A DNA stretch of 64,000 nucleotides from Buxus sempervirens. Its lineage: Eukaryota; Streptophyta; Magnoliopsida; Buxales; Buxaceae. Below are positions 8,746 through 48,475 of this stretch, piece after piece. How positions within the stretch are numbered: position 1 is the first letter of the stretch; every line of letters begins with the position of its first letter. A model generated the notes under the pieces. It was not told where the DNA came from, searched no databases, and saw only the letters and a list, made by a program, of their open reading frames with translations. Made by a program: the position numbers and the translations under genes. The stretch is from the NCBI GenBank assembly GCA_947561395.2, contig OX387194.1:25077536-25141535 (forward strand). The letters are read 5' to 3'.

Positions 8746-8850
8746 GCCCGTGTTTGCTATACGGGCTGCTCTTGCCCGTAAATAAAATCCGGTTTGGGCT
8801 CGCCCGTGAAACAAACACGGGCCTGCCCGGACCGTTCTGAGTTTACGGGC
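8746..8850. repeat. Palindrome zone II of the 7994-10399 LTR (GCCCGT motif)
   Basis: Three hairpin-forming units with arms GCCCGT/ACGGGC occur at 8746-8766, 8802-8822 and 8825-8850. The middle one is near-perfect: GCCCGTG ... CACGGGC. The same GCCCGT/ACGGGC arms form the promoter-proximal zone of this copy at 9664-9712. Confidence 0.8.
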
Positions 8851-9614
8851 GCAGCTAATTTTGCATTTTTGCTGCCGATTCTGCTTGAGATCAGTTCCGT
8901 GGCCTTCTCAGGTGTTCCGGTAGCTTCAGTTGGGATTCCAGATTCTTCAAAGTCCTTCCCTTTCTTCTTTTGGCCTAAAAGGCCTTCTTCTTCTTTCTTC
9001 CTCTTTTAACATGAAAACCAGCATCTTTTGGATGATCCATGATCATCTTTTGGAGGGGGGAAGTGGGAAATTACAAGGAACTCACTTAGCCTCAAGAAGG
9101 GTTCAATCCTTCCATGTCAAAGACTTAAAAAGGGTTATTTGATTAGTTAATCAAAGTTTTCCATAGACACTTTCTTTTTTCTCCTTTCTTGTAATGATCA
9201 ACCTTTTAATACCATCTTCTCATGGTACTCAAAACAGCAACTGAGTTAGTAACATTAAAAGTATTTAAAATAGACTAGAAAAGGAATTGAAATTGAAAAC
9301 ATTAGTGATAATGTCACATTATAACATCTAACATACTTACAATATGGTTTTCGCTAGTGATGATTTCCCCGGCGAATTTGGCAGGGCTTCCGCGTCCTCC
9401 AAAGATTCTAAAGTTGGGTTTGTAAGGGATTCAGTAGGTGGTTATGTTCAAAGGAAGATTAGAGAAGGTTTAGACATGGTTTTAGTGAGACAGGGGTATT
9501 TTGGGAACAAAATGGGTTTGGGTTTAGGGGTGGCAGCATTTGGGCAAAAGTTTGTCATGGGAACATTAGGGGAGGAAGGGGGAATCGGCCAAGGGATCAG
9601 GCTTGTCCAAATGA

Positions 9615-9633
9615 GGGGGGGGGGGGGGGGGGG
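9615..9633. repeat. G19 homopolymer
   Basis: Nineteen consecutive G on the forward strand, 7 bp downstream (in element sense) of the LTR TATA box. Length is likely variable and may be an assembly-sensitive spot. Confidence 0.95.
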
Positions 9634-9640
9634 CGCTCTC

Positions 9641-9648
9641 TATTTATA
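9641..9648 (-). promoter_or_regulatory. LTR TATA box (7994-10399 copy)
   Basis: Reverse-strand TATAAATA followed by GAGAGC. It lies 16 bp downstream of the palindrome array, and a GTAAGT splice-donor-like site follows ~300 bp later (near 9340). Confidence 0.6.
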
Positions 9649-9663
9649 GGCAAAAAGGCGCGT

Positions 9664-9712
9664 GCCCGTATTTAAAATACGGGCATGCCTTGCCCGTACT
9701 TTAAATACGGGC
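9664..9712. repeat. Promoter-proximal palindrome array (GCCCGTA/TACGGGC)
   Basis: Two perfect or near-perfect palindromes: arms GCCCGTAT/ATACGGGC at 9664-9684 and GCCCGTA/TACGGGC at 9692-9712. A weaker relative with CTGTATTT/AAATACGG follows at about 9827-9846. They sit immediately upstream of the reverse-strand TATA box. Confidence 0.85.
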
Positions 9713-10399
9713 GTGCTCTGCTCGTACTTCTAATACAGGTGAAAAACGCACATTTGCAACTCGCAGAATCAGCCGTACAGGACACGTGTCCCGCCGTACA
9801 GTGACGCGCGTCCTCTCCTAGAAGCCTGGCTGTATTTCAAATACGGTCCAGCACGTTTTTAAAATGTTTGGATTTCAAAACTTTATTCAATTTGATTTTT
9901 TGCAGATTTTGTTTGATTTTTCTGATTATTTTATTATAAAACGAGATTCCCTTTATTAAAATATTAATAAACACATTTATTTTATTGGTTTATTCCATTT
10001 TTTGCTGCCTTTTTGCCACATAGGCAGTTTTTCTGAAACTTCAACTGCCCATAACTTCTTCGTCCGGTGTACGATTTCAGCAAAATTAGTGTCATTGGAA
10101 CCGGCTCGAAACCACCTTTCGATTGGGATCAAGTTTGGCAGCTGAATTGGGGTCGAGCAAAAAGTCAACTTTTTGCTCCCCAAAAGTTTGACTAGCTCAT
10201 ATTTTTCTCATCTGGATTATGATTCTAGCAAACTCAGTTGCGTTGGAACCATGTTGAAATGCTCTTTTTAATGAGATGAAGTTTGAGGGCCAAATTTACT
10301 TGAATCAAAAAAGTCAATTTTTTGACCCCCTCAGGGTTTGACTTTTAGTTTGACTTTTCATTTTTTTCATTTTGGGGGTGCAAAAATCAAGTGCTAACA

Positions 10400-10942: not shown

Positions 10943-11660
10943 TTGACGCTCGAGCAAGCCCAAAACCGCCACTCTCTGTTATTTTGCGTTTCTATTAGTT
11001 ATGCGTTGACGCTCGACCGAGCGGAAATCGCCCCCAAACCTCCAATCTGGGTTTTCTAAAAATTGAGCCTTGACGCTCGAGCGAGCCCAAATCGGCCCAA
11101 AACCTCCACTCTCGGCTTCTATGGGTATTGATTACCTAACCTTGACGCTCGAGCGAGCACAAATCGCACCCAAACTGCCACTCTCGAGTTTTCTGAGGTT
11201 GTAGTCATAAGCCTTGACGCTCGAGTGACCCCAAATCGGCCCAAAACCGCCACTCTTGGCTTTTCTGAGTATTGATTACCTAACCTTCATGCTCGAGCGA
11301 GCACAAATCGCCCCCAAACCGCCACTCTCGGGTTTTCTGAGATTGTAGTCTTGAGCATTGACGCTCGAGCGAGCTTAAATCAACCCAAAACCGCCACCCT
11401 GGGCTTTTCTGAGTTTTTATTACCTAAACATTGACGCTCGAGCAAGTGCAAATCACCCAAACCGCCACCCTGGGCTTTTCTGATAATGTAGAATTAAGCC
11501 TGGATGCTCGAGCAAGCCGAAATCGGTCCAAAACCGCCACTCTCGGCTTTTCTGAGTATTGATTACCTAAGCGTTGACGCTCGAGCGAGGGTAAATCGCA
11601 CCCAAACCGCCACCCTAGGCTTTTCTGAGGTAGTTTAAACCCTTGACGCTCGAGCGAGCG
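10943..11660. repeat. 72-bp tandem array with 143-bp dimer structure, 11 copies
   Basis: The core TTGACGCTCGAGCGAGC recurs at 10943, 11006, 11070, 11142, 11213, 11286, 11358, 11430, 11501, 11573 and 11643. The first two intervals are 63-64 bp and the rest are 70-73 bp. From 11070 on, successive spacers alternate: type A carries GATTACCTAA, type B carries a TTGTAG/TGTAG...AAGCC-like end. The true repeat is therefore a ~143-bp dimer. The core contains the palindrome GCTCGAGC. No gene lies within; short open frames here are by-products of the repetition. Confidence 0.92.
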
Positions 11661-11711
11661 GAATTCGCTCAAAAAACGTCGTACTTGATTTTTCCAAAAT
11701 CCTTACACATG

Positions 11712-12266
11712 CGAGGACTTGTAACAGGGCTTGAGAGGACTTGTAACAGGGGTTGTGAGGACTTGTAACTGGGGTTGTGAGGACTTGTAACATGGCTTGT
11801 GAGGACTTGTAACTTGGCTTGTGAAAACTTGTAACAGGGGTTGTGAGGACTTGTAACAGGGCTTGTAAGGACTTGTAACTTGGCTTGTGAGGACTTGTAA
11901 CAGGGCTTGTGAGGACTTGTAACTTGGCTTGTAACAGGGCTGGGAGGACTTGTAACTGGGGTTGTGAGGACTTGTAACAGGGCTTGTGAGGACTTGTAAC
12001 TTGGCTTGTGAGGACTTGTAACAGGGCTTGAGAGGACTTGTAACTGGGGTTGTGAGGACTTGTAACAGGGCTTGTGAGGACTTGTAACTTGGCTTGTGAG
12101 GACTTGTAAGAGGGCTTGTGAGGACTTGTAAGAGGGCTTGTGAGGACTTGTAACTTGGCTTGTGAGGACTTGTAACAGGGGTTGTGAGGACTTGTAACAA
12201 GGCTTGTGAGGACTTGTAACTTGGCTTGTGAAAACTTGTAACAGGGGTTGTGAGGACTTGTAACAA
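11712..12266. repeat. 22-bp minisatellite, about 25 copies
   Basis: The unit GAGGACTTGTAACAGGGCTT(GT) occurs about 25 times with few interruptions; one short unit lies at 11925-11940. Variants alternate mainly between AACAGGGCTT and AACTTGGCTT, suggesting 44-bp sub-blocks. A 22-bp unit shifts frame each repeat, so 22-aa periodic reading frames up to 200 codons appear on the reverse strand in more than one frame. Those frames are not evidence of a protein. Confidence 0.95.
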
Positions 12267-12875
12267 TGCAATAGAGGACTGTATAAGCTCTTTTTTTTTA
12301 ATTTTTTAAATCTGTATATCCAATTATTATTTTTGCAATTAACTTTAACCTTTGCGACAGTTAAAAGATCAGTTAATCTCGATACTGTAACAGGGCTCTT
12401 TTTGTGTGATACGTTTGATATTCCAGAATTTGATAGCCTAAAATTTGGCTAGCAAGAAAGTTAATAGAATCCTGAATTCAATTTCCAATTAGTGGATAAA
12501 TCAAAGTGAGCCCTTTTTTTTCAGTTTTTCCCCATTTCTGTACCTGGACAATAGAAGGTGTGATGCCAAAAATCTTTGTTCTAGCTTTGTAATAACACAC
12601 TCTCTAATAATATAGATACCCAAAAAATACACTCTTTATAGTATGTTCTTGGCAGCTATGAGATCTTAGCATCACTTCCTACCCAACATAGAAATATTAA
12701 TAAATTCTTTATCCCTTGCACTCCAATATTCATTTATTTCTGGAACGGATTGGGATACATGCTAAAGTTTAAAAAAATTAAAAATTAACACAATAAAGTT
12801 ATTCTTATTCATTGTCATGCATAAAAGGATGGCACAAAAACTTTCGACAACTTGCCATGTTCTAAGAAGTACTTT
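12267..12875. other. Unassigned DNA between array and TSA fragment
   Basis: No gene seen. A partial 22-bp array word (TGTAACAGGGCT) lies at ~12386. The left boundary of the gene-fragment cluster may lie here, but I find no Helitron or MULE terminus. Confidence 0.4.
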
Positions 12876-13690: not shown

Positions 13691-14424
13691 AGTCTAGAAA
13701 TATACTTAACTGTCACCTGGCTGATTAGGCACTCACCCAGGTGACAAGGGGACCACAAAAAAACCTACATTAAACCAGCCTTGTCTACAGCATGCTAATT
13801 ATGTTATATACAATAGTTCGAAACAGAATAATTAATTCAACATTTTAGAATAGCATCACAGATATTATATTTTGGGTAAAAAAGAAAATTATACTGATGC
13901 TAAATAAGTTAGAAGAAAAAAAAACCTGCACATGTCCAGAAATTTAGCATATCATTTAACCCCAGTGTATTTTATTGAACCCAAAAAAAACACACAAACC
14001 AAACCAGATGGCAGTAAAATTTTGAGGGGAAAAAATGTAGAAAACACATTGACAGTTTATACACACATTAACAAGGATACAAGCTGAAGTTAAAAGAATA
14101 GGGAGGAGAGGAGAGAATGTACAAAACCAAGGAAAACAAGGAAAAATTGCTAACGGCTCATAGGGCTTGTCCAAATTTAAATTTACAAAACCAGATCATA
14201 GAGGAAAGAGAGAAAGAAGAGGAAGAGGGGAGGGGGTGGTGTTGTCACAGTGTTGTTGAAGTTGAAAAGTGACTTAAATATTTAGTTTACACAAAATTTA
14301 AACTAATATTTTGTTGAAGGTGAACAGCGAGCAACTACAAATGACCTGGGACCAACTGTCCGTTAGAAACAATATCTAAGTGAACAGTAGTGACACTTTT
14401 TGACATGATGTTCATCCAGCGGAT
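13691..14424. other. Unassigned DNA
   Basis: No gene recognised. CACCTGG/CCAGGTG words at 13717-13742 form a short palindromic pair. G/A-rich sequence occurs at 14200-14240. Confidence 0.4.
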
Positions 14425-14823
14425 GTGCAAGAGCTTTGTTCAATATTGAAAGAAGTCAATATTGTTTTCCTGGTATCTTCCCAACCCAATCTATTTTTTT
14501 GGACTTTATCACCTCACGGTTATTTCACTACAAGTTCCATATTTCTATATCCTTGTACTTCTGTTAGGAATGTGCAGCCTCCTTTTCCTCCCTCCTCCAT
14601 TTTATTTGCCCCAGGTCCTCCTAGAGTTAAAGCTTTCCTTTGGACCGCACTTCATAATGACATTAATACCCTTCGTAACCTCCAAAGGAAGAGGAAACTT
14701 CTAACAATCTCACCTAATGGATGTTTGCTTTGTCTCACAGGTGGACAAACTATAGACCATTCACAGATTCATTTGAGCCAGCAGGATCTATTAGCTCTTT
14801 TATTTTGGGCTTTATTGGATTGA
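14425..14823 (+). pseudogene. LINE retrotransposon 3'-end fragment (zf-RVT region)
   Basis: The frame gives WTLSPHGYFTT, then PPRVKAFLWTALHNDINTL, LQRKRKLLTISPNGCLLC and GQTIDH. This is the zinc-binding reverse-transcriptase C-terminal region of plant L1-type LINEs (Pfam zf-RVT); in the family: PPRVKAF.W.A..KINT, CV.C, E...HLFLHC. The Cys-x2-Cys pair is present, but the following His/Cys block degenerates after TIDHS. The frame ends at 14823 without a recognisable tail. Only this terminal piece is present, consistent with 5' truncation. Confidence 0.75.
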
Positions 14824-17339: not shown

Positions 17340-18028
17340 TTGTGTAAAAACGATAGAACAGCCAAACAGAAATCCAAACTGTCAAAACAGAAATCCAAAC
17401 TGTCAAAACTGATAGCCATATTATTGATTCCCACTTGGATATCTCAAGATCTTCTTCATCATCTGAGTTGCCTTCAGTCTGAAGGTGAGCAAAGTAAAAA
17501 TAAAAAATTTCACGATATATTACAAAAGTGGAAAATCAAAAGGGACATACAATGTTAAATCGATGCTAAGTTACAAGTGTATACACGATGGCAAAAGAGG
17601 TATTGAAAAACATGGTAAATTATCTGCCAATAGGAGACTAGAAAAAAAATACAACTATTCTATAACAAATGAAATGTTCACAAAAAGCTAGTTGAAACCT
17701 ACTTATATAAGCAGAAAGTGATATTAGAGAGATAAATTACAGCATTTTATCATCCAAATAGAAATATTTATTAATAGAATATGATAGCATTTTGAAAAGC
17801 ATGAATAAAGATTGACCTCACTAACAGATGCATATCGCTTCTTGTGACTCTTTAGCTGAAAAACAAGATATGCAGCATATGCTATGGGCATAATAAAGCT
17901 GCTAAACCTTGAAAGGATTGAGCCTAGTAATGACTGCTGAACAACACGTATCATTCCACTTTTCAGTGCATAAATTGATATTATCAACTCCGTTGCATTT
18001 CCAAAAGTAGCATTTAGGAGGCCCCCAA
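17340..18028 (-). pseudogene. CAX: Vacuolar cation/proton exchanger (CAX) two-exon fragment with internal deletion
   Basis: Exon 18028-17817 (CAG acceptor, GT donor) reads [35 protein letters not shown], then directly RFSSFIM and [11 protein letters not shown]. In CAX proteins the stretch after SILS (two membrane helices) precedes LSRFSS, so an internal block is lost at a shared 'LS'. A second exon starts at 17478 after CAG and reads TEGNSDDEEDLEISKWESII then WLSVLTVWIS, the acidic loop and next helix. A 19-bp duplication (17373-17411) repeats CTGTCAAAACAGAAATCCAA there, giving VLTVWIS twice. GNATE is the first alpha-repeat cation motif. The fragment passes straight into RPT1 intron sequence at ~17300. 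Confidence 0.85.
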
Positions 18029-18825
18029 CTGCAAGTTTCGATTTACTTCGTTAGAAAAGACCTTAGTGATAGAACAATTAATGTCATGGGCGGATATCTA
18101 CAATTTAAATCATAATAGGTATTTCAGCAGCTAGACAGAAAATCACCTGGTATATTGCTCACAATATGTATAGCCTAGATGGTCCCTTTACAAAGAAAAG
18201 TAAGTGGAGTATGCCTTTAATGCCATGATAAAAGAAGTAATTTGACCAACAGGGTTTCCTTCTAAAGTGCAGGCAGGAAACCACTAAAAGCGTATATCTT
18301 AGAAGTGATAAGACCGGCACTCGCATATACTGGTCTACGGAAAAACAAATAGCTTCATCAACAAAGTTATACTAAAAATAATAACAACTTCTAAATGAAC
18401 CACAAGATCAGAAATTTATGATTATCAACTTCATTTTTATTCCAAATGAAGTTCTAGTGGACTTATTGATTTTTGCCTAGCTGTAGCACCACAACCACCA
18501 GCTTTCTAATAGGGCTTTCAAAATGAGGTATATACACTTTGGCTGTTGCTCATTCATTTTATAGGACCATGAGATTCCACAATTGAATCAGAGAGAATAA
18601 CTAAAATTCCAGTAATTTGTGGGATCTTATCTGTATCTAGAACTAGTGTCTCAAAGAAATAATGAATTAATTGCATAAAAGCATAAACAACAGTGAGGAA
18701 AGATATATAAAGCTCTATCCATTTATATTTATCACAACTAATTTTGTAAAACGTATATCAGGCATAAATCTCAAAGCATACTTGGAGGAAAAAGGCATGA
18801 AAATATCCTATGAGGATAACCATGA
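18029..18825. other. Unassigned, probable CAX intron remnant and flank
   Basis: No exon seen on either strand. AT-rich without clear repeats. Confidence 0.35.
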
Positions 18826-26426: not shown

Positions 26427-27514
26427 GTTCAATGACAGTGATTAGAATTCAACTAAATGATAATCTTAAGAATTTCTTGATTGACTAAGCCTCTCTCCCA
26501 CGCCCTAGTGAAAAGGAAAATTCCCGTCATGTACTCTCCTTGTTTCTCCCCACCGTACACAAAGTGGAAAACCTGAATCTAGAAATACCCGTTACGAAAA
26601 TATCATAAACCTGCAACTTTATTAGGATTATATTTGAGATTGAGATCGTTTTAATTCTTGTTCCTCTAGTAAATGAAAATTTTATTGGTTAAGAAATGAA
26701 ATAGAAAAGATTAGAGATGGTTAGATGAGATACTGATTGCAATACCTGAATTGGGTTGTTCAATCTAATACCATTGAATTTAGAAAAAGATGATGGAAGA
26801 AGGAATGGGGAAGGCTGTTTTTGCTACACCACCACTAGTCTCGCGGTGTTTTCTTATTCTGTTCCACTTACTCTATTTTGCTTTGTTGAGTTACATGACT
26901 TAGTTTTGAGCTTGAGTTATTCACAAAAGGGGGCTTTCTTTTTCTGCCTCATATTTTTTCTTGGGGATTGTAAGCACCCAAATTTTGATCAAACCAAAAA
27001 ATGTGCTAAAAGATAGCAAAACAGATCAAAATGCTAAAGAACAAAAATTGGCCTTTTGATCAGGTGCAAATCCACCGACATACTTCTTCCTAATGATTAG
27101 GAAATTCCGACATGATTCTAACGCAACTGAGTTTGCTCAGATCGGGGTTCGGATGAAGAAGATATATGCCGGTCAAACTTGAGGGGTAGCAGAAATTGAC
27201 TTTCTGTTAAACCCCAGATCAGCTACTTAACCATATCCCAATGGATAGAGGGCTCCGATACAATTTTAACACAACTGAGTTTGCCAGAATCGGAGACCAG
27301 ATGATGAAGATATGAGCAGTTGAAGTTTCCGGGCAGTAATGCCAGAAACTGCACACTTGGCAAAAGAGCAGAAAAATATCTCAAGGGTGAATCCGTGAAT
27401 ATCAAAAATGTTAAAAAGATCTCAGGGACGAATTTGTAAATATTCAGGGGAAAATCCATAAATAATCCAAAAATCAAGATAATATCTCAGGGGCAAATCA
27501 GGAAAAATCTCAGA

Positions 27515-27758
27515 ATAACCGGAATTAATTTTCAGTTATACACAAAATGTGTATAACCAGAATCCAATTTCGGTTCATAAAGTGAAAATCCAGATTTGTC
27601 TGACAGATTTCCCAACAAAATCTCAGATTTCTCATGATTGTATGTCGGAAAAGGGCGTAACCGGAATTTTATTTCGGTTACATATAAACTTAGTATAACT
27701 GGAATTGAATTTCGGTTATACTAGTTTTTCTTCATAACCGGGATACAATTATGGTTAT
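27515..27758. repeat. Promoter-proximal palindrome array (ATAACCG/CGGTTAT)
   Basis: Five palindromic units at 27515-27539, 27553-27577, 27657-27681 (GTAACCG...CGGTTAC), 27694-27720 (TATAACTG...CGGTTATA) and 27734-27758 (ATAACCG...GGTTAT), with inner arms AAT and ATT. The last ends 12 bp before the TATA box. Confidence 0.85.
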
Positions 27759-27769
27759 TCTTTTTCGTC

Positions 27770-27777
27770 TATAAAAG
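27770..27777 (+). promoter_or_regulatory. LTR TATA box (26969-32653 copy)
   Basis: TATAAAAG followed by CTGCTCAGCAGCTC. A splice donor (CCAAG/GTAAGC) follows 275 bp later at 28045, as in the other family-A copies. Confidence 0.65.
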
Positions 27778-30045
27778 CTGCTCAGCAGCTCATTTGAAAG
27801 GGGTTAGCCATTTTTAGCCTTTAAAGCTCTCCTACCCCTGCTAGGCCACTCCTCCTTTACATCCTCATCCACTCAACCAAGCCCAAACCACATCCTATCC
27901 CCTCTCAAGCCCTTCCCTTCTTATTCCTCTTGACTTGAAACCAACGAAGGAGATTTGGAGGTGGAGCTAAGAAGAAGGCTCCAAGGTGCTATCCAAGCCT
28001 TCAAGGGGTTTCCACACACCTCCAATACAATTTCTAACCCCAAGGTAAGCATTCCTATTGGGTTTTATTTCACATATATGAAAATGGGCATATTTTAAGC
28101 ATTTGAGGGTATTAGTGTTCTTTCCATGCTATTTCCCTTCTTGGATAATGTCTTCTCTTGTTCTTGTGAGACATGGGAAAAAATCACCGGAGTGATCATC
28201 CCTCCGTCAACACACGGGCTCAACGCAAAAGTGGGAGAGTCGCCACCATTCATGATTTTGGGGTGAGAATGGACACCAAAAGATTCAAAAGTAGGCAAAA
28301 AGAGCCAAAAGAAACATTCTAGGATAAAAATAACCCTACTTGAAAATCAAATCCAGAGATGGGTAAGGGGATTAGATTATGAACGGGGGAAGGTGTTAGG
28401 CACCCCCATTCATCCACACGAAGTGGTTGCCAAGTGTATGTTCATGCTAAAAAGAAAATAAGAAGCTTGCTAAAAATCATGAAAAAGCCTTAAAAAAGGA
28501 ACAAGTGTATGATATATTCACATGAAGATCCAAATGGATTTTAGATCTTCTCTTATGTCCATATCACTTCTGGAGTATTTCAAAAGATGGAAATCAAAGT
28601 AAAAGTGGCCAAAACCAAGTTGAGGCAAATCCGGGAATTTTGGTAAAAAGTAAGGTCCTTTGTCTTGAAATCATTCAAATCCAATTTCAAATTGATTCAA
28701 ACCAACTCTATTTGAAAGATTATGATAAATAAGGAGCTCATGCAAAATCTCAAGTTAATCCGATAAAAATCCTAGGAGTTATGCTCCTTTGAAGTTGCTG
28801 TTGGGGATTTTTAAAAGTGGTAAGTGGGCAACTTTGGAAAATTGTCTAGAAAAATCCACTACATAAAAGCCCACCAAATTTGGTGTGATTGAAGTTTGTA
28901 TGGCCATCTTTCCATAGAAACTAGCCTCATACAAAAATCCCTTCGGATGTGCCTTGGGTGGTCTCCCGAACAGGCCCCGAAGATCACAGATTTACCCAGA
29001 AAAGTACAAATGAACAGTTCTGAGTAAATCGGCTACCAATAATTCAAATGGAATCCAAAAATTATGAAACCAACTGGATTTGAAAATAGACTCAAAAAGG
29101 AGTACTCAGAAATAAAAATCACTCGAATCGGAATTAAAACGAACACATGGCGGTCCGTCGAAGTGACAAGTTCTGTACTTGAACCTGAACTGTCCACTCA
29201 ACTTCGACAGAGAGGTGTCAAAAATCCGCTAGATGAAAATTCATGAACTTTGGTAGACATAAACTATACAGCCTCACCTTTCCAACGGTTCTGGAATCAC
29301 CCCAAAATTCATCCGGATGATGAAGTTATGGGCGTCCGAAGTAAGGGTACAGGTGCTGTCAAGTTAAGCCACTTTTGAAGAAAATCAAATCCGAAAATTA
29401 ATAAAATGTGTGTGATCTGTGTGAGATGAATCCAAAACCTTTGAAAAACATTTTAAAATACTCCAGAATTTGATTGAGGCCATTTATTGGAGATTTATCA
29501 CAATGAATGTAATAAATCCCCAAATGTGAGCCTATTCACCAAAAAAGTGTAATATGTGTGCAAAAGTGAAAAACCAAGCAAGATCAATACAACATGCATA
29601 TAGATTCAATAAAATAGGTTCTAGCATAGCCTAGGGTTCCGTTCCATTATCGTTTCCCTCTGTTCTCTTTAAGATAATCAAGGGTACTTTGAATATGGAA
29701 CGGTTTACAATCAATCAAAAAGGCCTTATGCTACATGGGTTCTAGCACTAGGGTCAATCCCCAGTCTCGTTTCTCCTAGATCCGCCTTCACGTTTTACGG
29801 CTAGGGGAGTCTTGAGATACTTTGAGCTGGGGAAGGATTTCCACACATACAAACAAGGCTTTACACTACAGAAAGGTAGAAGAAGAGATCTAGATCTAGG
29901 AATGTAAAGACAAAATAAAAAGAAAAGTTGAGGCTTACCTGAGTTCTGGAGGCGATTCTGCAGCGGTTTTCTTCTTCTCTTGGAGTTCTTCTTTGCGAGA
30001 ATTCAAAACAAGAGTTGTGTGCCATTTGCTTAAGGAGGAGTCTCC

Positions 30046-30053
30046 TATTTATA
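30046..30053 (-). promoter_or_regulatory. LTR TATA box (28165-30943 copy)
   Basis: Reverse-strand TATAAATAGGAGACTCC context, 168 bp downstream of the palindrome array. Confidence 0.6.
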
Positions 30054-30220
30054 GGCAAAGGTTAAGGTTAGGGTTGGTGAGAATGGTAGACACAACATAA
30101 TGTCTATAGCCCACCAACCTTAACCCTAAGGCTCTTTCCGAGATTTCCCCTCATTTAATGAGGGATATGATGGTAAAAGTGAAAAGCTCTCGGAAAACCC
30201 TAATTTTGAGCAAAACTAGC

Positions 30221-30369
30221 GTATCCGGCATGTCAGGCCGGATACACAAGTACCTTAATGTATCCGGTCTATGATGCCGGATACACTGAGGTCTACTTGT
30301 ATCCGACATTGTCCACCGGATACAAAGAAGGACACACACTTGTATCCGGCCTGAGTTGCCGGATACAAG
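30221..30369. repeat. Four tandem palindromes (GTATCCGG/CCGGATAC)
   Basis: Units at 30221-30245, 30259-30285, 30297-30325 and 30339-30369. Arms run 8 to 12 bp (the last is CTTGTATCCGGC / GCCGGATACAAG). Loops differ in sequence while arms are kept. Confidence 0.92.
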
Positions 30370-30407
30370 GAAAAAAGCCTTTTTTTCGAATTTTAACACA
30401 GGCAATA

Positions 30408-30487
30408 CTTATTTACATGTAATATCGTTTAAGTAAATGTCCTCGTATTTTTTAATCTCCATTTACTTAAGATATTACATGTAAATA
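30408..30487. mobile_element. 80-bp foldback (long inverted repeat)
   Basis: Arms of ~31 bp: CTTATTTACATGTAATATC..TTAAGTAAATG and its reverse complement, differing only by a 2-nt indel, around a ~20-bp spacer. A C13 run follows at 30496-30509. It may be a MITE or foldback relic inside the nested LTR; no clear target duplication read. Confidence 0.75.
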
Positions 30488-31490
30488 AGCAAACACCCCC
30501 CCCCCCCCCATTTGAATCCATTAAAAATAGTTCCAGACCCAAATTCCAAGTGAATAAAAAGTCAACTTTCCAGTTCTAGGCAAAATTCCGATTTTTCAGG
30601 TCTGGAAAAAAGGTTCAATATGTTAAAACCCTGGTATTCGTCAAGATTTAAAATCTCAAAAAATTCATTTATGCAATAACATTGCTAAAAACCTGATTAC
30701 CGGGAAAAATTATCTTGAAATCTTGCTTTAAAAAATATTTCATTTTCTGGGGTCAAAAGTCAACAAAATTCAACCGGAAAAAGTTTGACTATGCACAAAA
30801 GATAGAATTTGGGTCTTTCCTTTACGGCTTTGGATTCAAATGGGTTAAGTATCTCAAACCTAATGCAAAGAATTGAAAATTCCAACAAAATATTTCTCTC
30901 CTTCAAGATTTATCAAAAATCGTGCAATTTTGGGGTGTCTACAGTTCTTGAGCTCCATCTTCTTCTCCTCCTTTGGTGGTTAAACTCCTATGGAACGGGG
31001 AGTCGGCTCGGCCAATAAAGAGAGAGGGTGAGAGACCGTCTACCACGGATTAAGGATGGTCTTCAAGGCATATGCCCTTGTGAAGCTTCCTTAGTTTGTT
31101 TATTATTCAAATATGGGGAGCATGTTCCCCTCCTTTGCTTAAGTCCCTTGTACCCCATAAATCCCCTTCGCATCCTTTCTTTTAATGGTTTCACTTCCTA
31201 TTGCATGCTTGCTATTTCTTTATGTTTTGTACGATATAAAGCATGTGTGCCTAGGTAGGATTTTTTACATGAATGCCTTGAAAAGCATGATCCCTTCCCC
31301 CCTTTGATTCCTAAAAGTCCCAAAAAGTGGTCTAAAGAGGCCTCTCCCCTTTGCCTGAACTATTGTGGGCCCACACAGGCCCTAGCATACACTGAAAACC
31401 TCGAGAAATCATTCCCCCATAAAAAAAAGCCCAGAAACGTATTTTTTGTGCTTGCCCGAACACACAGGTCGGGCAAGCCTGTTTTCTCAC

Positions 31491-31622
31491 TTGACTGAAA
31501 TTCAATTTCGGTTAAGTTATATACTGTATGACTGAAATTAGGTTAAGTGTGTATACTGCATGACCGAAATATAATTTCGGTCATACTGTATACTGGTGTA
31601 ACTGAGATTGAATTTCGGTTAC
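31491..31622. repeat. Palindrome zone II of the 26969-32653 LTR (CCGAAAT/ATTTCGG)
   Basis: Units at 31491-31515, 31561-31583 (TGACCGAAAT / ATTTCGGTCA, perfect 10-bp arms) and 31598-31622 (GTAACTGA / TTCGGTTAC), plus a partial one at ~31531-31547. The motif matches the promoter-proximal array of the same copy (27515-27758). Confidence 0.85.
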
Positions 31623-33141
31623 ACCCTGTAAATGTAAAAAAAAAACCAGTTTTCAGTCCCTTAGCCCATTTCCAATCTTTTTTTTAATAAACGAATTAAC
31701 CCAATAGGGTTTCGGGTCAACCCGAGACCCAGCATTGGTTTTGGACCCAACGGGTCCAGCTTGAGAACCGTGGGCCTTCTAACGGGGCTCACTTAGTCCA
31801 AGTCACTCATTTGAATTTAAGAAAGATAATTAAATAAGTATAGTGGGCCATACCATTCGAGGCCCACCAAAAGCCCAACATGATCCATGCTTGCTAGTTT
31901 AGGACTTGGTTTGGCCGTGACCACGGGCTTGGGCCTATCGGGCCCAGCTCACTTCATGAGAAGCACATCAATCAAATAAGAAAGGGTCAAAACCCTAATT
32001 TCCTTGGCTAAAGGCCCCAAGCCCAAGGCATAGCCCATTTTGGCAAAGATTAATCAAGAAAAATTCAAAGATCATTTGGCATCCCTTGTGTGGCCTACCC
32101 AGGGGCCCACAAACCATTTCCAGGCCCACTTTTGCATGAAAATCACTTAATCCCCAACTTGAACTTTAAATAAAATCAATCAAACCAACCAAAACCAAAA
32201 GGGGTTATCCAACGTAACCACAAACAGGACTTGGGTTTTCATTAAAGCCCAAATTGGCATCTTGTGGGCCTTCCAACGAGGCCCACACAACAGACCTAGA
32301 TCACTAAGGTTAAATAAGATAAAATCAAGTAAAGGGATCCACACCAATCAGGCGGTCCCGACCAGACTTAACCAAATGTTGCATATCGGCTTAGGAACAG
32401 GGTGAGATAGACCAAAGTTGATTCAAACCAAGAAACCCATGGGACCTGTCATTCGACGAAGCAGACCGGGATGTTTACGGACTTCCCTGGACCATAACCG
32501 AGACTCTACCTTAGAATCTCAAAACCACAGGCCGCCTAATAAAAAAACCTAGGCACCCAGGTGTTTGCCTGCACCCCATCAGGTAGTGGCAACTCCAACC
32601 TTCCCGAATTACCTTTCAGGAGGCGACACCCACGCCGTGCGACCATGCGCACAGGGACCAATTTCACGACTAATCCAAGGTTTAAAAGATGGATTCATGG
32701 GTCTCAACCCATATGGCAATGCTCTACTCAAACTCTTCTTCTTAGAGAAGCCTCTTCTCTCTCTGTCTCTCTCTCGTGGAATACCTTTGAAGAGAAGATA
32801 GGGTATCTTGTTTTTCAATATCTTTGCAGAATGTTGAAGAAGGGTGGTTTTCAAAAGTAAGGGTTGAAGAAGAAGAAAGAGTTGGGCTTTTAAAAAGAGA
32901 CTGGTTTAACCTAAAACCAGTTTTTTGGTAGGTTATTTTTGTTTGAACCACCCTAAAGTATAAAAACTGGGTTTGTGAGTTGTAAACTGAGGGCAAAAGG
33001 GGCATTTATTTGTCTCTTGACATATGCAGTAAGGCATTCCGTCATTTTATTTATAAAACTGGTGTAAACTTGACAATTGGTTGTGAAGGTAGTGTATTTT
33101 GGAATAACATTTTAAATGACAGGGTGTATGGTAATTTTCCC

Positions 33142-37721: not shown

Positions 37722-39055
37722 TGTAATGCCCTCTGCAAGTACCTCATTTTTGCACCCCTCTAAAAAATAGGAAAGAAAACCCTAAAAGACAGGTCAAACC
37801 CCAAGGAGTAGAACTTGACTTTCTGATCAAGCTTGAATTAATTGCCATATCCTATCTAAATGGATAGGAAATTCCAACACGGTTCCAAAGCAACTGTGTT
37901 TGACAGAATTGGAGTCCAGATGAAAGAGATAAGAGCAGAAAACCCTAATGGCAAAACTCTAAATAAATGAAGAAAGTTTATCTACGTGGCAAATGTACAA
38001 GCTACATTTGCCAAGCGGCAAATTAAGGGCTAAAGGACAAATAGGAGTAAGAAAAAGCATGAAAGAAAATATCTTGATTAAAATAATATCATTTCTTAAA
38101 ATATTTTAACATAATTAATTAAAAAAATCGAATTTCTCTCATTATTAAAAATCATGACAATCTAAGGTCATTTCAGCCAAATAGGAGAGAGAAAATGAAA
38201 ATCTAAAAAGGATACGTAAATAACCAAAATTAAATTTCGGATATACACAAAATAGTGTATAACCATAATTAAATTTTGGTTCATAGATTATTTTCTCAAA
38301 TTCTTGTGTCAAATTTCTCATTGCAAATCTTTGACAAAAATCCTTTTGATTTGATGTTAAGGTGACCAAAATTATATTTCAATAAGAAATTGCATAACCG
38401 AATTGAGATAAGCTAAAACTCAACTCATTTGTAGGGGTTCAATGATTTTGGCTCTCCCCACTCTCTCTCCCATGTATGCCCTTCTCTCCTACCCCTCTCC
38501 TTAACTCCCTAGGCTTTCTAACTCACACCAAACCCCATTAAATCTCATCCTTTTTTCATCACAACCAAGAAGGAGGCCAAGGAAGCTACTTGGGAGCTAA
38601 AAGAAGGTGCTCCTACCTGTTGTCCAGATATCAAGGAACCTTCATGCACCCCAAGAGGAATTTTTCCTCCAAGGTGAGCTTCCTAAGCATCATTTACATA
38701 ACATATATGAATTTGAGATCAATATAAGCATATTTTCATTTATGTATTAGCTTTTTACTTTAGCTTGTTTCTCCCCCCTCTTTTCTTCATTTCTTCTTTA
38801 TTTTCTTCACAAGGATGGACTCCATGGTAAGGGGAGGTAAAAGTGTTAAGTGGGAGGTTAAGAGAGTATGTTAATGTCCCCAAGAGTCCCACTTTGTTGT
38901 CTTCCTATTCTTTTCTTATTATCAGTAAAAGGAGAGCATGTTCTCCCTTCTCCCTTCTCCCTTCATGCCAATGTACCCCATAAGCTCTGCCCCCTTTTCC
39001 CTCCTTTATTTGTCTCCTTATGCATTATTAGCGTACTTCGTACATGACCTTTGCT
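37722..39055 (+). mobile_element. Family-A LTR fragment (5' part)
   Basis: Begins TGTAATGCCCTC...CATTTTTGCACCCC, matching the family-A start. It has one AACTGTGTTTG unit (~37880), a degenerate palindrome zone AACCAAAATT/AATTTCGG (38221-38395) and the CCAAG/GTGAGC donor at 38674. The TATA box seems lost. It breaks into another copy at ~39056. Confidence 0.65.
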
Positions 39056-39642
39056 CCTTGAAACGATTTTAACGCAACTGAGTTTGCTTAAATCAGAGTC
39101 TGGATGAAGAAGTTATGAGCTGGTCAAACTTGAGGGAGCAAAAATTGCATTTCTACTAAAGCCCAATTCAAATACCCAACTTGATCTTAACAAATAAAGG
39201 ATCCCAACACGGTTCCGATGCAACTGAGTTTGCTGGAATTGGAGTCCCAGAGAGGGAGATATAAGCAAAACTAGCTTCTAAGGAGCAGTTTTGCACTTCT
39301 GCTAAAAATCAGAATTTGCTGCCATACTCTAGCTTAGTGGATAGAGAATCTCGACCTGATTCTAATGCCACTAAGTTTTCGGACATCAGATGAAAAAGTT
39401 ATGGCAAGTCAAAATCTTAGGAAAACTACCCATGTGGCAAAGAAGCAAAAAATGACAAAACAGATAAAAATCGGGAATAAAATAATCATTTTTATAAAGT
39501 ATCTCGATTTTATACATTTAAAATAAATGAAAAAGTCGTATAATATCGAAAAATTGTCTCAAAATGGAGTAAAATTTGAAATCCGCGCAATTAACACGTG
39601 CGAACGGCACAATATATGTGAACGTGCCTGGTCCGCACATAC

Positions 39643-42600
39643 TGTAAAATCTCGAAATTTTAATAATATTAGAAAATTTGTTTTTCGGGAGTATTAATTG
39701 ATTTAATTGATGGGAAAGTCTAGAAAGACAGATTAAGCGGTTGAACCGGAGTTCTCAGGTGAATCCAAATGGAAAAATTGTAATTTATAAAAATAAGAAG
39801 CATTATTTAATTTTAATTAGTTGGTTTAGGGTGGTTTAATGATATGGCAAGCAAGGGCAGTCAGGGAATTTCACAAAAGTCAGATTATATAAGTTAAGGG
39901 TGATTAAGGTTATGTTATAATTTCATTAGTAACTAAATATTTTAGTAAATTTTATTAAATATAATTAAGTGTTGATGATATCTGGTTGGATGGCAAATCA
40001 GTGGATCAATGGATATTAGGGTTGTGGTGTAGGAAGTTAGGTGGAGGAGCACTACAGCAGAACACTAAAAGGGAGCTGAAGGGTTGCTTGATGAAAGCTG
40101 CTGGAGAAGTGGCCTTTCGACTCTCATTTGCTGCTGGGGGAAAGGGGCGTTTGGAGTGCCATTTGAGTGCTGGAGAAGAAGGAGCAGCAGAAGGTTGGTG
40201 GTGAGTTAAATCAGATCTGAAGAATGGAAGTTTGTGAAAAGAGATCAGTTCATAGAGGGAGTGCGATTGATCTTGTTGCACAGAATTTCGTCCCTTTCTC
40301 ATCTCAGATCAGGTAAGAACTTTTCAGTGGTTGTTTAAGTTTGATTTGGTTAGGATTATATCAAGTTTACAGTAGAGATTTGGATCAAGTGTTAAGATTT
40401 GAGATCTGAAATTTCTCTGCAGAAATTTTCAGTTCTTGGAGAAGTTTTGGGCGTGGAGAAATCTGGACATCAATGTTGGTTTTTGTTGAAGTTGGATTCC
40501 AAGAAAGTTCAAGGCAAGTAGCACCTTCAAAAATCATTTTTGTGTGTGAGTTGTGATCATTTAAAGAGTTAGAAGAATGCTGTTTTTTTCTATACCTGAA
40601 ATGGGCGACTGAACCATGATTTAGTTTTAGTCTAACTAGATTAAATCTGAAATGATAATATTGTGTTATTATGATATTTCTTATCATGTTGAAGTGTTTG
40701 AGTAGGAGGACTTTAATTCAGTCCTAAAGTTTTTATAATTTCAGCAAGTTATAAATTTGGTTGAGTGAGAAAAACATATATTGCACATCTGATATTTGGT
40801 TAGAGTAATCTAGTTCAGTACTATTGCAAGGTTGGTTCAAGCTTCATGGATTGCACAAATTGTGCTTATATGAATTCAGGTTTTGAAAATCCAGAAATTT
40901 CCAGATTTCTATTCGTACGTATATTGATATTTAAGCTGTGAATTATTATAGCTTATTTAGATTAAATCGGAATGGTGTCTTTGTGTTATTCGGATAATTA
41001 TCAACATGTTGAAGAGATTTGTTTGGTTTAGTTTAGTCCAGTCCTTTATTAATCTGAATTGGGCATTTAATCTTGAAGCTGAGGCAATTTTGATTAGAAT
41101 AAATCTAAGGGTGTTCAGGTGTAGTATTTGATTGTGTTGCAAGGTATTAGAGGTGATTAAGATGAATGATCTTAGACTATTAGAATCTAGGGAAGCTGGA
41201 AATTTTGATATGGTTTAGAGGTCTATTGAGGGTCATGGTACTAAATGCATGTTGATTTTTCTGCAGCAGATTTTGAGATTTGCTCCTAAGCTTAATTGTT
41301 GTTGTCAACTCCTTAGTTACTTCACTGGATGTTGTGCAATAGTGCATCAGATATTCTAGAAATGTTAAAGGTCTATGCAAATTATTTGGCAAATAAAATG
41401 AGATTGTTTAGATAGGTTATTTGGTTGATTTATAACTGGTTAGTGGTGCTTGGTTCGGATATGGAGGAGTAGATGATAAGAGTAAGGTGCAGCTGTTTTG
41501 TTTTTTTTTTCAGTTATATTTGCAACGGTTAAACCCTATTCAAATGGTTTCATCTAAGTTCTAATTAGCATTTTGTTCAGTAAAATTTTAGGGAAGCCAA
41601 TTTAGTGCCATGGTTAAGAGAATCATTGGGGAGACATAATAATAGGGTCATGTCTTAAATTTTTCTGCAGCATGTGGTCACTTTGAGTTTATCTTGTGCC
41701 AAGCCTATTTTACTTCTTTACCTGAGTTAGTCAAGGAAATTGGGACTCTAGAGCTGTAGATTTAAATGGAGATCAGATTTATCAAAATAGATTAAGAGTT
41801 TTGTTGAGAGACATAATACCAAAGCATGAAATAAATTTCTGCAGCATATTAGTTGGAATTCTTTGATTTTTCTTGTGTTTATTCCTTTAGTTGTTTCACT
41901 CAAGTTATTCAAAGATTAAATAGGGACTCCACAACTAATAGAAACTTATGGAATTTAATTTGACGAGAAGGTTAAGGAGAAATTGTCATTGGGAATGTAT
42001 ATATAGCAAAAGTTAGCAAATCTGAATTCTTACAATTAGAGGATTGAGACGAATTAAAGAATAGCATGGATCAAGTTAAATTTCTGCAACCTATATTAGA
42101 GTCTTTCTTATGCTGATTTTGGGTTTCAACTTGAGTTCTAACTTGATAAACCTACTTAATTAAGTTAGTTGGGCTTCAAATAGCATTCCATAATTTCTCG
42201 AACCTCATGGGAAATTAGTAAATGATATTGATTAGAGGATTGCTGAAATTTAAAAACAAGCATGTATACTATATATTCTGCAGCTTGTAAATTAATATGA
42301 ACCACTGTGCAAGTTGTGTTCTAGCCTATGGTATCCTTTCCCCTGAGATATTCAAGACGAAATTGGTATTAGGGAGCTGTTAAAAATTTCAGTTTGGACT
42401 AAATTAAATATGATTTAGAGAATTATAAGTGAAGATCTATATGAGGTGGTCGTTAGCAAAAGTAAGTAGGGTAAATCAAAGCAGTTATTAGAATTGTCTA
42501 TTGATATGAACTTAAGGCTTTTATTGAATTATTTAATTTCCTTTTACCACTTCTGATTTTTTGGAAAAGCCATTATGATCTGAAAGTTTGAATTGGCTTG

Positions 42601-43458
42601 GTTATTATTTATGGATAAAGTGTGAGGTATTCTCCTTGTATATACTAATTGCCGAAATATTTTACTGTTGAATGAACTTGGTGGCTATTTGATCTAAATT
42701 GGTATGGTTAGTTATAAAAATGACTGAAATTGCATTGAACATGATTTTAAGTTGGTTGTCAAACTATATATATTAAATTGCTAAAGTATTAAGGGTGAGA
42801 CCTTGTGTGGATCCACAGTCGAGTTGTAAGTAAATTTTGTACATTTTGTTTGGATTAAGTCTAGGGTTCCTTAGTGCATTTCTTCCATGATGGAGAGGCC
42901 TTCCATGAGGGAAGTGCTGCAGCAACTCCCTTTCCACCATGAGGGTAAGGTCACACGAGTATTTCCACCATGAGGGCAATGAATTGGTTTGTTCGAGCTG
43001 TTGCAGTATTTCGACTGGATTGTCTGGAACACTAGTGCTTAGCCACACAAAATAGACAAACTTCATGAGTCCCACTATATCATGAAATTTTTTTTTGAGT
43101 CCGTTTTATTATCGGATGTGATTGTCGAGATTGATCGGATTAACCGAGGTTAACCGTAAACTTAATTGATTACAACTTATGCATGTTTTAGAACGGTTAT
43201 AACTGTATTTTGGGCATGCATTTCTACTTGCTGAGATATTCGTATCTCACTGTTTTGTTTTGTTTTGAGATCTCGGTGAGGATGTTACCGGTGGGTATAT
43301 GCTTGGTTCAGGTGAGTTGGGAAAATTTTAGTTGTCTCTGATTATAATATTGATTATTTCATGTTTTCCTTCACTCTGATAGCGATTTTGTGTGAAAAGC
43401 TAACTCCTTGGGAACGAGTTACGGTTTATTTTACGTAACCCAGTTTCGGGGCATTACA
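39643..43458 (+). mobile_element. Family-B solo LTR inserted at a palindrome centre
   Basis: Begins TGTAAAATCTCG and ends GGGGCATTACA, with exact duplication CATAC (39638-39642, 43459-43463). It is 3816 bp with no coding domain. Internally it has repeated TTTCTGCAGCA words (~40420, 41263, 41666, 41837, 42085, 42275) and the CCACCATGAGGG zone (42880-42985). The target is the loop of a family-A promoter palindrome. Confidence 0.88.
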
Positions 43459-43532
43459 CATACTGTGCGGATCCGTCCTTATCCAAAAAGACAGCTGGCA
43501 GATTTGTTAGGATTACGCACATGGAAAATGAG

Positions 43533-43581
43533 GTCCGCACCTAGTGTGCGGACAAAGCCTGTCCGCAAACTAGGTGCGGAC
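43533..43581. repeat. Promoter-proximal palindromes (GTCCGCA/TGCGGAC)
   Basis: Arms GTCCGCAC/GTGCGGAC at 43533-43553 and GTCCGCA/TGCGGAC at 43561-43581. A third unit, CCGCACA/TGTGCGG, is split by the nested LTR (39634-39642 with 43459-43470). Confidence 0.9.
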
Positions 43582-43605
43582 GGTGCCGTCATGAAATTTT
43601 TTGCT

Positions 43606-43613
43606 TATAAAAG
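43606..43613 (+). promoter_or_regulatory. LTR TATA box (39056-45450 copy)
   Basis: TATAAAAG followed by GGGGCCC, 25 bp after the last palindrome and 280 bp before the conserved splice donor at 43886. Confidence 0.65.
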
Positions 43614-44851
43614 GGGGCCCTAGGCCCCATTGCCCAAGGTTGGCCATCTCTTTTGTCTCCACCAGGTTGCTTGCTACTAGTAACATCCCAAGCCATCCCT
43701 TTCACTCCAATCCCTATAAAATTCCCCAAAATACCCCTAAGTCTTCCGTTGTTTCTTCTCTTCTTCATATTATCCTATACAAGAGAGCAAAGGGGAAGTC
43801 TTTTGAAGCCAAGAGAAGGCTTTCAAGTTGTTGTCAACATCATTTGGAGGACCACAACACTTAAAAAAGAAGAGGTAATAACAAGGTGAGCTTCCTACCA
43901 ACCTTGTATTTGACATATATTAAATTTAAGTTTTTTTGGATATGTTTCCTTTTTAACTATTGTTAATAACTATTTCTTGTTATTTTTATTCTCACCATTT
44001 GTTCCTTCTTTTGCATGCTATGAGAGTCCCCATGGTAAGGGGGATCCCTCATACGAAAGGTGGGAGGAGTGTTTCTCCGATAAGGCAAAAAAGAGCCATT
44101 TAAGCAAATCATTATTGCTTCTTTGTTTGCTGATGTTATTTTAAAGAGTGGTTTGTCCTCTTATTGGATCTGTTGTAACCCTTATAATTAACTTCTCCCT
44201 CCTTCCCTTCCTTAGTTATTATCATTTGTCGTTCTCTTGCATGTATGATCATGTCATAAGCTTCTTGTTCTTTTAGTGTATATACAAGCACCACTTGTAT
44301 GCATGCATTTTAACATATGTCGAAAGCCTCACTTCCAGCATATTTTTACACACTAATTGAACCATGTCACACATACATTTTCATTTGTAGCATATAAAGA
44401 ACATGTTTAAGACATATTTAGACTTGTCTTATATTCATTTTTAAATGTTAGCATGAAACTTCTCATTTTAACCCATTAGCACATACTTTTTAGATCACTT
44501 CCGGCATTTCCAGCCCATTTTATACAGTATGTTCGATTCCTTAGATGTCACTCTTCACTTGCTGTTATTGGGTGCCTCACATCACTATCCCCATGCATGA
44601 TTATTTATGTATGTTTAGTTCTTGTATTTGCTCGTTGATTGGTTGAAGGGATATGTGAATGGCTTAATAAAAGAAGCTTGATTGTGGCCAAAAATGAACA
44701 TCTAAACCACTGTGGGTCTACTCAGAGACCCACAGCAGTTCACCCAGGCCTCTGAGAAGTAGGCGAACCCATCCCCATGACCATTTTAGCGTTTCTAGGA
44801 TTTCGGGCCGGATCTGCATACTCAGGGCGAATCAGGCCCGACTGCATGACA

Positions 44852-44902
44852 TGTGCGGTCAGGCCGTGACCACATAGGGTCTGCGGACGGGCCTTGTCCG
44901 CA
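44852..44902. repeat. Palindrome zone II (TGCGGAC/GTCCGCA)
   Basis: Units at 44852-44874 (TGTGCGGTCA / TGACCACA) and 44882-44902 (perfect arms TGCGGAC / GTCCGCA). Same motif as the promoter-proximal zone of this copy. Confidence 0.85.
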
Positions 44903-45450
44903 TAACTTTCTGCGAACAGAGCCAATGGACCACCAGATTTCGTTTTCTTGGGTTTAAGCCCGCTTGGTCCGACCCGAATAAGTTTAATGTAAACCATTTG
45001 GGCTCCTGAGTCAACCCAAGCCCATTTTTGAGACTCGGGCCTTAAAAGTCTTAACCCATTAATCAATTTGTATATTTAATTAACCTTTAAACTAAATAAC
45101 CAAACCCAATAATTAGGGTTACCTAACATAACCATAGCTGGGCCTTGGGCTTGATTTAGGCCCAACATGGTATCCAATGGGCCTTCCAACAGGGCCCATA
45201 TCCGACCCACTTCACCGAAAGGTAAAAAGATAAAATCAATCAAAATAAAAGGGACCTAGATAGATGGTCCCCACTCAAACTTAATAAGTTTGCATTCTGG
45301 CTTAGGAAATAAGGGTGAGACTAAGTTGACTTAAACCAGGAAAACTCGAAGGACTCGCTAAACCAGCGGGGCGGACTGGGTGTCTTCGGACTTCTTCGAA
45401 CCGTAATCGAGAACTTAGCTGGAATCTTCAAAAAGCCGCAGATCAATCAA

Positions 45451-47927: not shown

Positions 47928-48475
47928 CACTACAAGAAATATGCCTTTTTGCAACGAAACTATTTGCAACGATTTAAAAGTCCTTGCCATAAAGCAGTTA
48001 TTTGCCACAATTTTCCAGATCGTTGCGAATATATAACTATTTGCAACGGTGTGTATAATCGTTGCAAATACACAATTATTTGCAACGAAATACCCTTTGT
48101 TGCAAATGTTCATTGCAAAAACTGTTAATTATGACCAATACATTTCCAACAACGTAGAAGTCGTTGCAAAAAAAATAGTTATTTACAACAATTTATAGAA
48201 TCGTGGCAAATACGTAACTATTTGCAACGCAATACTCATTGTTGCAAATGTTAATTGCAAAAATTATTATTTGTGACCATATATTTGTAACGACATAAAA
48301 ATCGTTGCAAACAAATAATTATTTACAACAATTTATAGGGTCGTTACAAATACACAGCTATTTGCAACAACATACTCTTCGTTGTAAATGTTCGTTGTAA
48401 AAAAAGTTGCAAATACATAATTATTTGCAACAAAATACACTTGGTTGCAACTATTCACTATAAAAAAAGTAGCAT
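47928..48475 (+). mobile_element. CACTA (En/Spm)-type end with subterminal TTTGCAACGA repeats
   Basis: CACTACAAGAAA at 47928 is the classic CACTA terminal sequence. It is followed by more than a dozen TTTGCAACGA/ATCGTTGCAAA words on both strands, grouped in ~120-bp degenerate blocks (from ~48060, ~48225, ~48355). Subterminal repeats of this kind bind the CACTA transposase. I do not find the matching TTTCTTGTAGTG end, so it is truncated or its partner end is degraded. Confidence 0.75.

Follow-up and report, generated by a model that had tools for sequence, protein, structure and literature searches.

Why should palindromes gather at the promoters of long terminal repeats (LTRs), and why should their sequence differ from one related copy to the next? 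The question is raised by a 64-kb window, the whole stretch of DNA analysed here, in which a sequence-only reading had described arrays of palindromes directly upstream of LTR TATA boxes. The LTRs concerned belong to one family, family A, and to one unrelated element, solo LTR C. Relatives of family A were mapped by self-BLAST of the window, and regions were read on the sense strand. The family-A copies present are solo or broken LTRs only, and no internal region of the family was recognised within the window.

The ends expected of a solo LTR, TG..CA with a short target-site duplication, are present. The duplication is a perfect 5 bp in A5 and C, and 4 of 5 positions agree in A1. Copies A2, A4 and A6 have incomplete LTR ends. 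The limits of A1 and A5 used in the sequence-only reading were right (Table 1). A5 is 2406 bp long and A1 is ~2.9 kb without C, and the TATA box lies ~750-800 bp from the LTR start. LTR A6 is split by solo LTR E, which landed within a GTCCGCA palindrome of the A6 array; plant LTR elements are described, in excerpts of PMC6911290, as having a weak preference for palindromes. A splice-donor-like sequence can be read downstream of TATA in six LTRs, the unrelated C included. Besides that of A1 (Table 1), it is AAGGTGAGC in A2 and A6, AAGGTTAGC in A4, TTGTAAGTA (weaker) in A5 and CAGGTAAGC in C. It follows TATA by ~270-310 bp in the family-A copies with an intact TATA and by ~110 bp in C, and judging from these letters splicing may occur there. 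The family-A LTRs can be aligned over their downstream half, with 72% identity between A1 and A4 over 877 columns and 56-61% in the remaining pairs.

Table 1. Positions of LTR copies, palindrome modules (U, upstream of TATA; D, downstream of TATA) and related features in the 64-kb window
Feature	Positions	Strand	Description
LTR A1	26969-32653	+	TG..CA ends; flanks GGGAT/GGGAC, 4/5 alike; solo LTR C inside
Solo LTR C	28165-30943	-	inserted in A1; flanks AGAAC/AGAAC; unrelated to family A
LTR A2	37734-39050	+	5' part, truncated before any D module; TATA degraded
LTR A4	51130-54530	-	5' end undefined
LTR A5 (solo LTR)	7994-10399	-	flanks GAATG/GAATG
Solo LTR E	39643-43458		TGTAAAATC..GCATTACA; flanks CATAC/CATAC; splits A6
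A1 TATA box	27770-27777	+	TATAAAAG
A1 splice-donor-like sequence	28042-28050	+	AAGGTAAGC; ~270 bp 3' of TATA; sequence reading
A1 U module	27515-27758	+	5 units, ATAACCGGAATT-N-AATTTCGGTTAT type
A2 U module	38215-38290	+	motif same as that of A1
A4 U module	53991-54060	-	TGTATCCAA ... TTGGATACA
A5 U module	9664-9851	-	GCCCGTA..TACGGGC units 9664-9684 and 9692-9712; degenerate unit 9826-9851
A6 U, left half of first unit	39631-39642	+	GTCCGCACATAC; cut by LTR E
A6 U module	43464-43581	+	remainder of split unit; GTCCGCA..TGCGGAC units 43533-43553 and 43561-43581
C U module	30220-30367	-	4 units TGTATCCGG..CCGGATACA; 168 bp upstream of TATA at 30053
A1 D module	31450-31625	+	GCTTGCCCGA hairpin with own arms, then 3 CGAAATT-type units (A1 U motif)
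A4 D module	52199-52265	-	two hairpins, spacer AACTCAG; first alignable with A1 31450-31478; arms differ from A4 U
A5 D module	8746-8850	-	GCCCGT..ACGGGC units 8746-8766 and 8802-8822; imperfect unit 8825-8850
A6 D module	44852-44902	+	TGCGGAC-7 nt-GTCCGCA (44882-44902), arms of A6 U; degenerate unit 44852-44874
ACTCAG palindrome centres	8842, 30356, 44720, 44820, 52213, 52252	LTR sense strand	

The arrays upstream of TATA stand where they had been placed. The distance from the nearest palindrome to TATA is 12 bp in A1 (27758 to 27770), 16 bp in A5 (9664 to 9648, minus strand), 25 bp in A6 (43581 to 43606), 11 bp in A4 (53991 to 53980, minus strand) and 168 bp in C (30221 to 30053, minus strand), so that "just upstream" describes the four family-A copies and hardly describes C. 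Two features had been overlooked: a sixth copy, A2, with an array of its own, and a third unit of the A6 array, which is split by the insertion and continues at 43464. The units listed number nine in A1, five in A5, four each in A6 and C, and three in A4, with a few more imperfect ones seen by eye. The arms had been called nearly identical within an array, which holds for A5, A6 and C; the five units of A1 are only 62-70% like a reference unit of 37 nt. It had also been proposed that the form and position of the palindromes are kept and their sequence is not. Arms do differ between related copies: the upstream modules of A1, A5 and A6 score 16-19 against each other, and 69 to 211 of 300 shuffles did as well. 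What is kept nevertheless includes some sequence, since a CCG or CGG is present in 23 of the 25 units picked by hand (e.g., AACCGAA, GCCCGTA, GTCCGCA and TATCCGG), the set on which all unit features were counted. Copy-specific motifs are likewise seen in A1, A5 and A6, but A1 and A2 carry one motif, and this pair is the only case of a fixed motif common to one subfamily by descent.

Farther into the LTR, 0.8-1.8 kb past TATA, each of the four family-A copies that extend to this part has a second palindrome module, which the sequence-only reading had passed over. The distance from TATA is ~0.8-0.9 kb in A5, ~0.9-1.1 kb in A1 (C not counted), ~1.25-1.3 kb in A6 and ~1.7-1.8 kb in A4.

The predicted excess of palindromes over dinucleotide shuffles is present in the window and in most upstream blocks. 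Window-wide, 42 palindromes score at least 11, the threshold used. Twenty shuffles that kept dinucleotides within 500-bp blocks averaged 4.45 and never exceeded 10. In the 300-bp blocks 5' of TATA, none of 300 shuffles came up to the observed total for A1, A5 or C, and one did for A4. The count was three for A6, whose block is partly the inserted LTR E, and 37 for A2, which is not significant. Downstream blocks of the same length gave counts of 0 (A1), 1 (A6), 4 (A5) and 9 (A4) of 300, and part of this downstream signal is supplied by TGGGCC palindromes of the conserved LTR tail, which are of another kind. A comparison of upstream blocks with 1275 sliding windows of the 64 kb found 13 windows as high or higher for C, 52 for A5 and 54 for A1; A6 (115), A4 (194) and A2 (273) are not outstanding by this measure. 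The top 2% of palindrome content forms eight regions, five of which overlap modules (A5 D, A1 U, C U, A1 D and A4 D). The rest are the tail of LTR A4 and two regions elsewhere, 48151-48500 and 63401-63750. The region at 63401-63750 is a CpG-rich palindrome and 22-bp tandem array of the GGCGCCGAGCTCGCGCC type.

The tails themselves (31700-32600, 8050-8700, 51190-52130 and 44960-45470) are rich in TGGGCC/GGCCCA palindromes and in AAACCCTA, which we take to resemble the site II (TCP) and telo-box motifs of plant promoters. They also contain a hairpin, GGGCC-TTCCAAC-GGGCCC, in which A5 shows a paired change. Tail sequence 31658-32650 had no match in a plasmid collection. A search with the conserved U3 pattern returned two viral-contig and four bacterial-contig loci; none is similar to the window, and these were rejected as chance hits.

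What sets the downstream modules apart is their relation to the upstream array of the same LTR. The upstream arms recur in the downstream module of the same copy in three of four copies, as the CGAAATT type in A1, GCCCGT in A5 and GTCCGCA in A6. The best local alignment between the two modules of a copy scores 53 in A1, 42 in A5 and 33 in A6, and in no case did any of 300 shuffles score as high. Modules of different copies among the same four LTRs, paired in 12 combinations, score at most 26, and the true pairing is the best of the 24 possible. The upstream modules were also run, unguided, over ~1270 windows of 150 bp. A5 and A6 each had their own downstream module as top match; for A1, the upstream module of A2 came first and the copy's own downstream module second. 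The match is absent in A4, where the score is 16, 29 of 300 shuffles are as high, and the best match within the LTR lies elsewhere. Decay of CpG in A4 may hide a match, and reversing it would yield an ATCCGA core in both A4 modules. In C, a palindrome scan revealed no downstream module with C arms, and the first downstream hairpin of A1, GCTTGCCCGA, has arms unlike those of A1 U. Four copies test the pairing, and it rests on three of them. What is new in the finding is this pairing, in which a downstream array repeats the copy-specific arms of the upstream one; searches of the open-licence PMC literature turned up no account of a second palindrome array downstream of TATA within one LTR, an absence that carries little weight.

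Several matches between copies also exceed all 300 shuffles. A2 U matches A1 U (82) and A1 D (39) because the motif is common to A1 and A2, and A1 U matches A5 D at 26. The pairs C U with A4 D (28) and A4 D with A6 D (29) have in common a hairpin with central AACTCAG/ACTCAG and are not U-D pairing.

The downstream array could instead be part of a second LTR promoter, with one array for each promoter. Two TATA boxes are cited for barley BARE (excerpts of PMC3485330), and TAAATATAA in A5 and TAAATGTAA in A1 start within ~10 bp 3' of the downstream array. A clear TATA right after the array was not seen in A4 or A6, however, and we consider this arrangement very unlikely.

The pairing could also arise by mutation without any function. 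Template switching at hairpins, during replication or reverse transcription, would perfect palindromes, and arrays would be exchanged in the same way. The similarity between upstream and downstream modules extends over the 7-nt spacers, in local alignments of 48 bp in A5 and 24 bp in A6, so that copying between arrays would account for the match without any factor. The first downstream hairpins of A1 and A4 can be compared over 14 pairs in register. Six pairs are unchanged, three differ by double changes that keep pairing, one has gone from C-G to T-G, three are paired in one copy only and one is paired in neither. Double changes at paired sites are the outcome of template-switch correction. 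By global alignment, the arrays of A1 and A2 are 66% identical and their flanks 50% and 52%, as cassette exchange would predict. The claim that these two arrays are more alike than their flanks is weak in that it depends on global alignment; local BLAST gives similar values for the array (68% over 203) and for flank pieces (66% over 201, 68% over 149 and 63% over 331). The 5' flank of A1 is closer to those of A4, A5 and A6 (56-60%) than to that of A2 (50%), yet its array motif is common with A2 only. Mutation without function leaves unexplained why arrays stand at the same two places when other parts of the LTRs are mostly 38-62% identical. It also leaves the retention of CpG unexplained, and we judge it rather improbable.

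CpG retention is marked in the modules. The A1, A5, A6 and C modules have observed/expected CpG of 0.87-1.41; the value for the whole window is 0.53, and two other stretches of LTR have 0.51 and 0.32. CpG is kept in four of the five upstream arrays measured, those of A1, A5, A6 and C, a set that did not include A2. The exception is A4, the modules of which have lost nearly all CpG (observed/expected 0.0 and 0.25). The pattern CCG-N2-AA-N7-CGG, written post hoc, has five matches against a shuffle mean of 0.30, and all five are in modules of A5, A6 or C.

The sequence-only reading had also seen a fast-turnover module in U3. Pairwise identity among A1, A4, A5 and A6 is 33-53% in the upstream arrays, 53-62% in the 5' flank and 38-51% after TATA. 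The arrays have diverged more than the 5' flank and about as much as the region after TATA, and the idea that they evolve faster than the remaining LTR was dropped.

The palindromes may act in RNA rather than in DNA. They would then be stems of sense-strand hairpins serving dimerisation, contact between the two modules or export. The upstream and downstream arms would match because they can pair with one another, and the downstream array would lie near the 5' end of the RNA and the upstream array near its 3' end. Sense-strand mismatches in the 25 hand-picked units are G.T in 17 cases and A.C in five, the direction expected for sense RNA, although 11 of the 17 G.T pairs come from the A1 arrays, whose units have a common ancestry. 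ACTCAG is central in six palindromes with different arms, in each case on the LTR sense strand. A4 D has two of these and A5 D and C U one each; the remaining two are in the A6 D region, one of them in a degenerate hairpin. This regularity was noticed post hoc. Predicted folding is strong, with z down to -10.5 on the sense strand. The sense strand has the lower z in A1U, A1D and A4D and the antisense strand in A2U, A5D and CU, whereas the two strands are nearly level in A4U, A5U, A6U and A6D; any palindrome folds on either strand. No Rfam family was detected at threshold in the window. We regard a function in RNA structure as rather unlikely.

The ACTCAG centres bear two further observations. 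The A6 palindrome at 44710-44735, which holds the ACTCAG centre at 44720, has other arms, CTGTGGGTCT..AGACCCACAG. The complement of ACTCAG is the core of a conserved U3 motif, GCAACTGAGTTTGC. Pairing of AACTCAG with the CTGAGTT of GCAACTGAGTTTGC was considered post hoc and is not claimed; the window has 27 ACTCAG, of which six are in the U3 motif and six are palindrome centres.

A set of paired cis-regulatory arrays for a putative dimeric factor with lineage-specific specificity is the best explanation, and one in which our confidence is middling. The palindromes would be dyad-symmetric sites with a half-site core of CCG/CGG, bound by a dimeric sequence-specific factor that controls the LTR promoter. 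One array would lie just 5' of TATA and, in family A, a second 0.8-1.8 kb downstream, 3' of the splice-donor-like sequence and possibly within an intron of the leader or within a long R/U5 region. A single factor would read both arrays of an LTR lineage, hence their common arms. Arms would differ between lineages because the specificity of the factor has diverged or because different factors are in use, and units would spread by duplication and exchange of arrays. The factor could be a host protein or encoded by the element. We infer the factor, its dimeric binding, its control of the promoter and the intron. In favour of this explanation are the palindrome excess at both places, the match of arms within A1, A5 and A6, the retained CpG, the double changes that keep pairing between A1 and A4, and the precedent of the Sirevirus motifs described below. 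Against it stand A4, the lack of a matching downstream module in C, the matches that cross copies, the arms common to A1 and A2, the deviating first downstream hairpin of A1 and the similarity of the spacers. The sequence-only reading had offered three functions, a dimeric-factor enhancer, a structural barrier and a hairpin source of small RNA. The dimeric factor is favoured among these because a matching second module fits it best.

A bolder form of this explanation is that each long-LTR lineage encodes, or has captured, its own putative dimeric protein, and that palindromic operators, clustered in the LTR on both sides of the transcription start, co-diverge with it in the manner of VANC proteins and their targets in VANDAL DNA transposons. 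We think such self-recognition unlikely; if true, the specificity of each lineage could be read from its paired arrays. If the two arrays prove to be paired throughout the genome, this would separate selection for a common reader from the simple growth and decay of palindromes. Lineage-specific regulators of their own promoters would then become directly testable in plant retrotransposons.

A Pfam scan of open reading frames in the window covered 24 of the 25 frames of at least 100 aa, with 11703-12305 left out, and matched only Transposase_32, zf-RVT and Na_Ca_ex, none of them tied to family A. The Transposase_32 (PF20167) match is a 258-aa open frame at 6379-7155 on the minus strand (E 7.7e-26), and fragments at 14404-14823 and 17724-18050 match zf-RVT and Na_Ca_ex. 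The window also has large tandem arrays near LTR A5 (10943-12265), with periods of 22/44/66 and 72/144, and a self-complementary stretch of ~350 bp (72%) at 816-1162 that is foldback- or MITE-like. A possible kind of element-encoded factor comes from a plant LTR retrotransposon lineage, Tat/Retand (Ty3/gypsy), which is defined by pol phylogeny and an antisense TRP28 frame: antisense TRP28 (PF04195) proteins of Retand elements are predicted to bind DNA (excerpts of PMC11963269). PF04195 has no match at E 0.001 in the 24 scanned frames, and "palindrom" appears in PMC11963269 only in one cited title.

The hairpins could also persist as a source of small RNA for host silencing, the element retaining them because its promoter needs them. 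Hairpin-forming palindromes of maize Sirevirus LTRs are reported to be such a source in a 2016 study cited in excerpts of PMC10760457. Those palindromes are likewise clustered in the regulatory part of the LTR; small RNAs are known there, whereas the present arrays are known from their letters. The arrays here fold strongly. A role as silencing source alone would not retain them in the element, and we think it quite doubtful as the main explanation, with which paired operator arrays could nevertheless coexist.

The sequence-only reading had considered such a module undescribed, and this does not stand: besides the LTR hairpins and small RNAs cited in PMC10760457, repeated motifs (RM boxes) are known from Sireviruses. 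By analogy with these motifs, the palindrome module is of a kind already described. Sireviruses are Ty1/copia elements whose LTRs, according to excerpts of Bousios et al. 2010 (PMC2829016), carry element-specific palindrome arrays that form CpG islands and end shortly before TATA. A CGG-CCG core is given there for 12 of 13 elements, and nine of the 13 have further motif copies in the linker, for the most part 5' of the ENV gene. The arrays of A1, A4, A5 and A6 likewise end 11-25 bp before TATA (168 bp in C). The CGG/CCG core is common to the units here, in 23 of 25, and the clusters measured are CpG-rich with the exception of A4. A second, distant cluster of the same motif is also common to both, in the nine of 13 Sirevirus elements of that source and in three of four copies here. 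The Citrus Sirevirus motif given in the same excerpts, AATCCGGCTWRCCGGATT, resembles the C arms by eye.

Differences from the Sireviruses of that source concern placement, number and size. The second cluster is inside the LTR downstream of TATA here and mostly upstream of ENV there. Sireviruses have at least eight motif units per element, whereas three to nine per LTR are counted here from LTR sequence alone and only A1 reaches eight. The LTRs listed in the excerpts are 0.54-1.68 kb long, compared with 2.4-2.9 kb here. The genus is recognised by LTR length and a TATA near the LTR middle, and the present LTRs depart from both. Other marks of the genus are multiple polypurine tracts, a conserved 5'LTR/PBS junction and a copia-type pol, and given the misfit Sirevirus membership is not claimed.

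A second system for comparison is found in the VANDAL DNA transposons, in which arrays of VANC target motifs occur in upstream regions and introns (excerpts of PMC5735166 and PMC10398659). As in the present LTRs, the motif arrays are short and noncoding; those of one copy change in concert, and related copies have different ones. VANDALs differ in being DNA transposons with a TE-encoded factor, an anti-silencing protein that binds the motif and removes methylation, and no palindromic form is stated for the VANC21 motif YAGTATTAY in those excerpts. If the present lineage is not Sirevirus, arrays of this kind would extend to another group of LTR retrotransposons and would be linked to the co-divergence of motif arrays seen in VANDAL.
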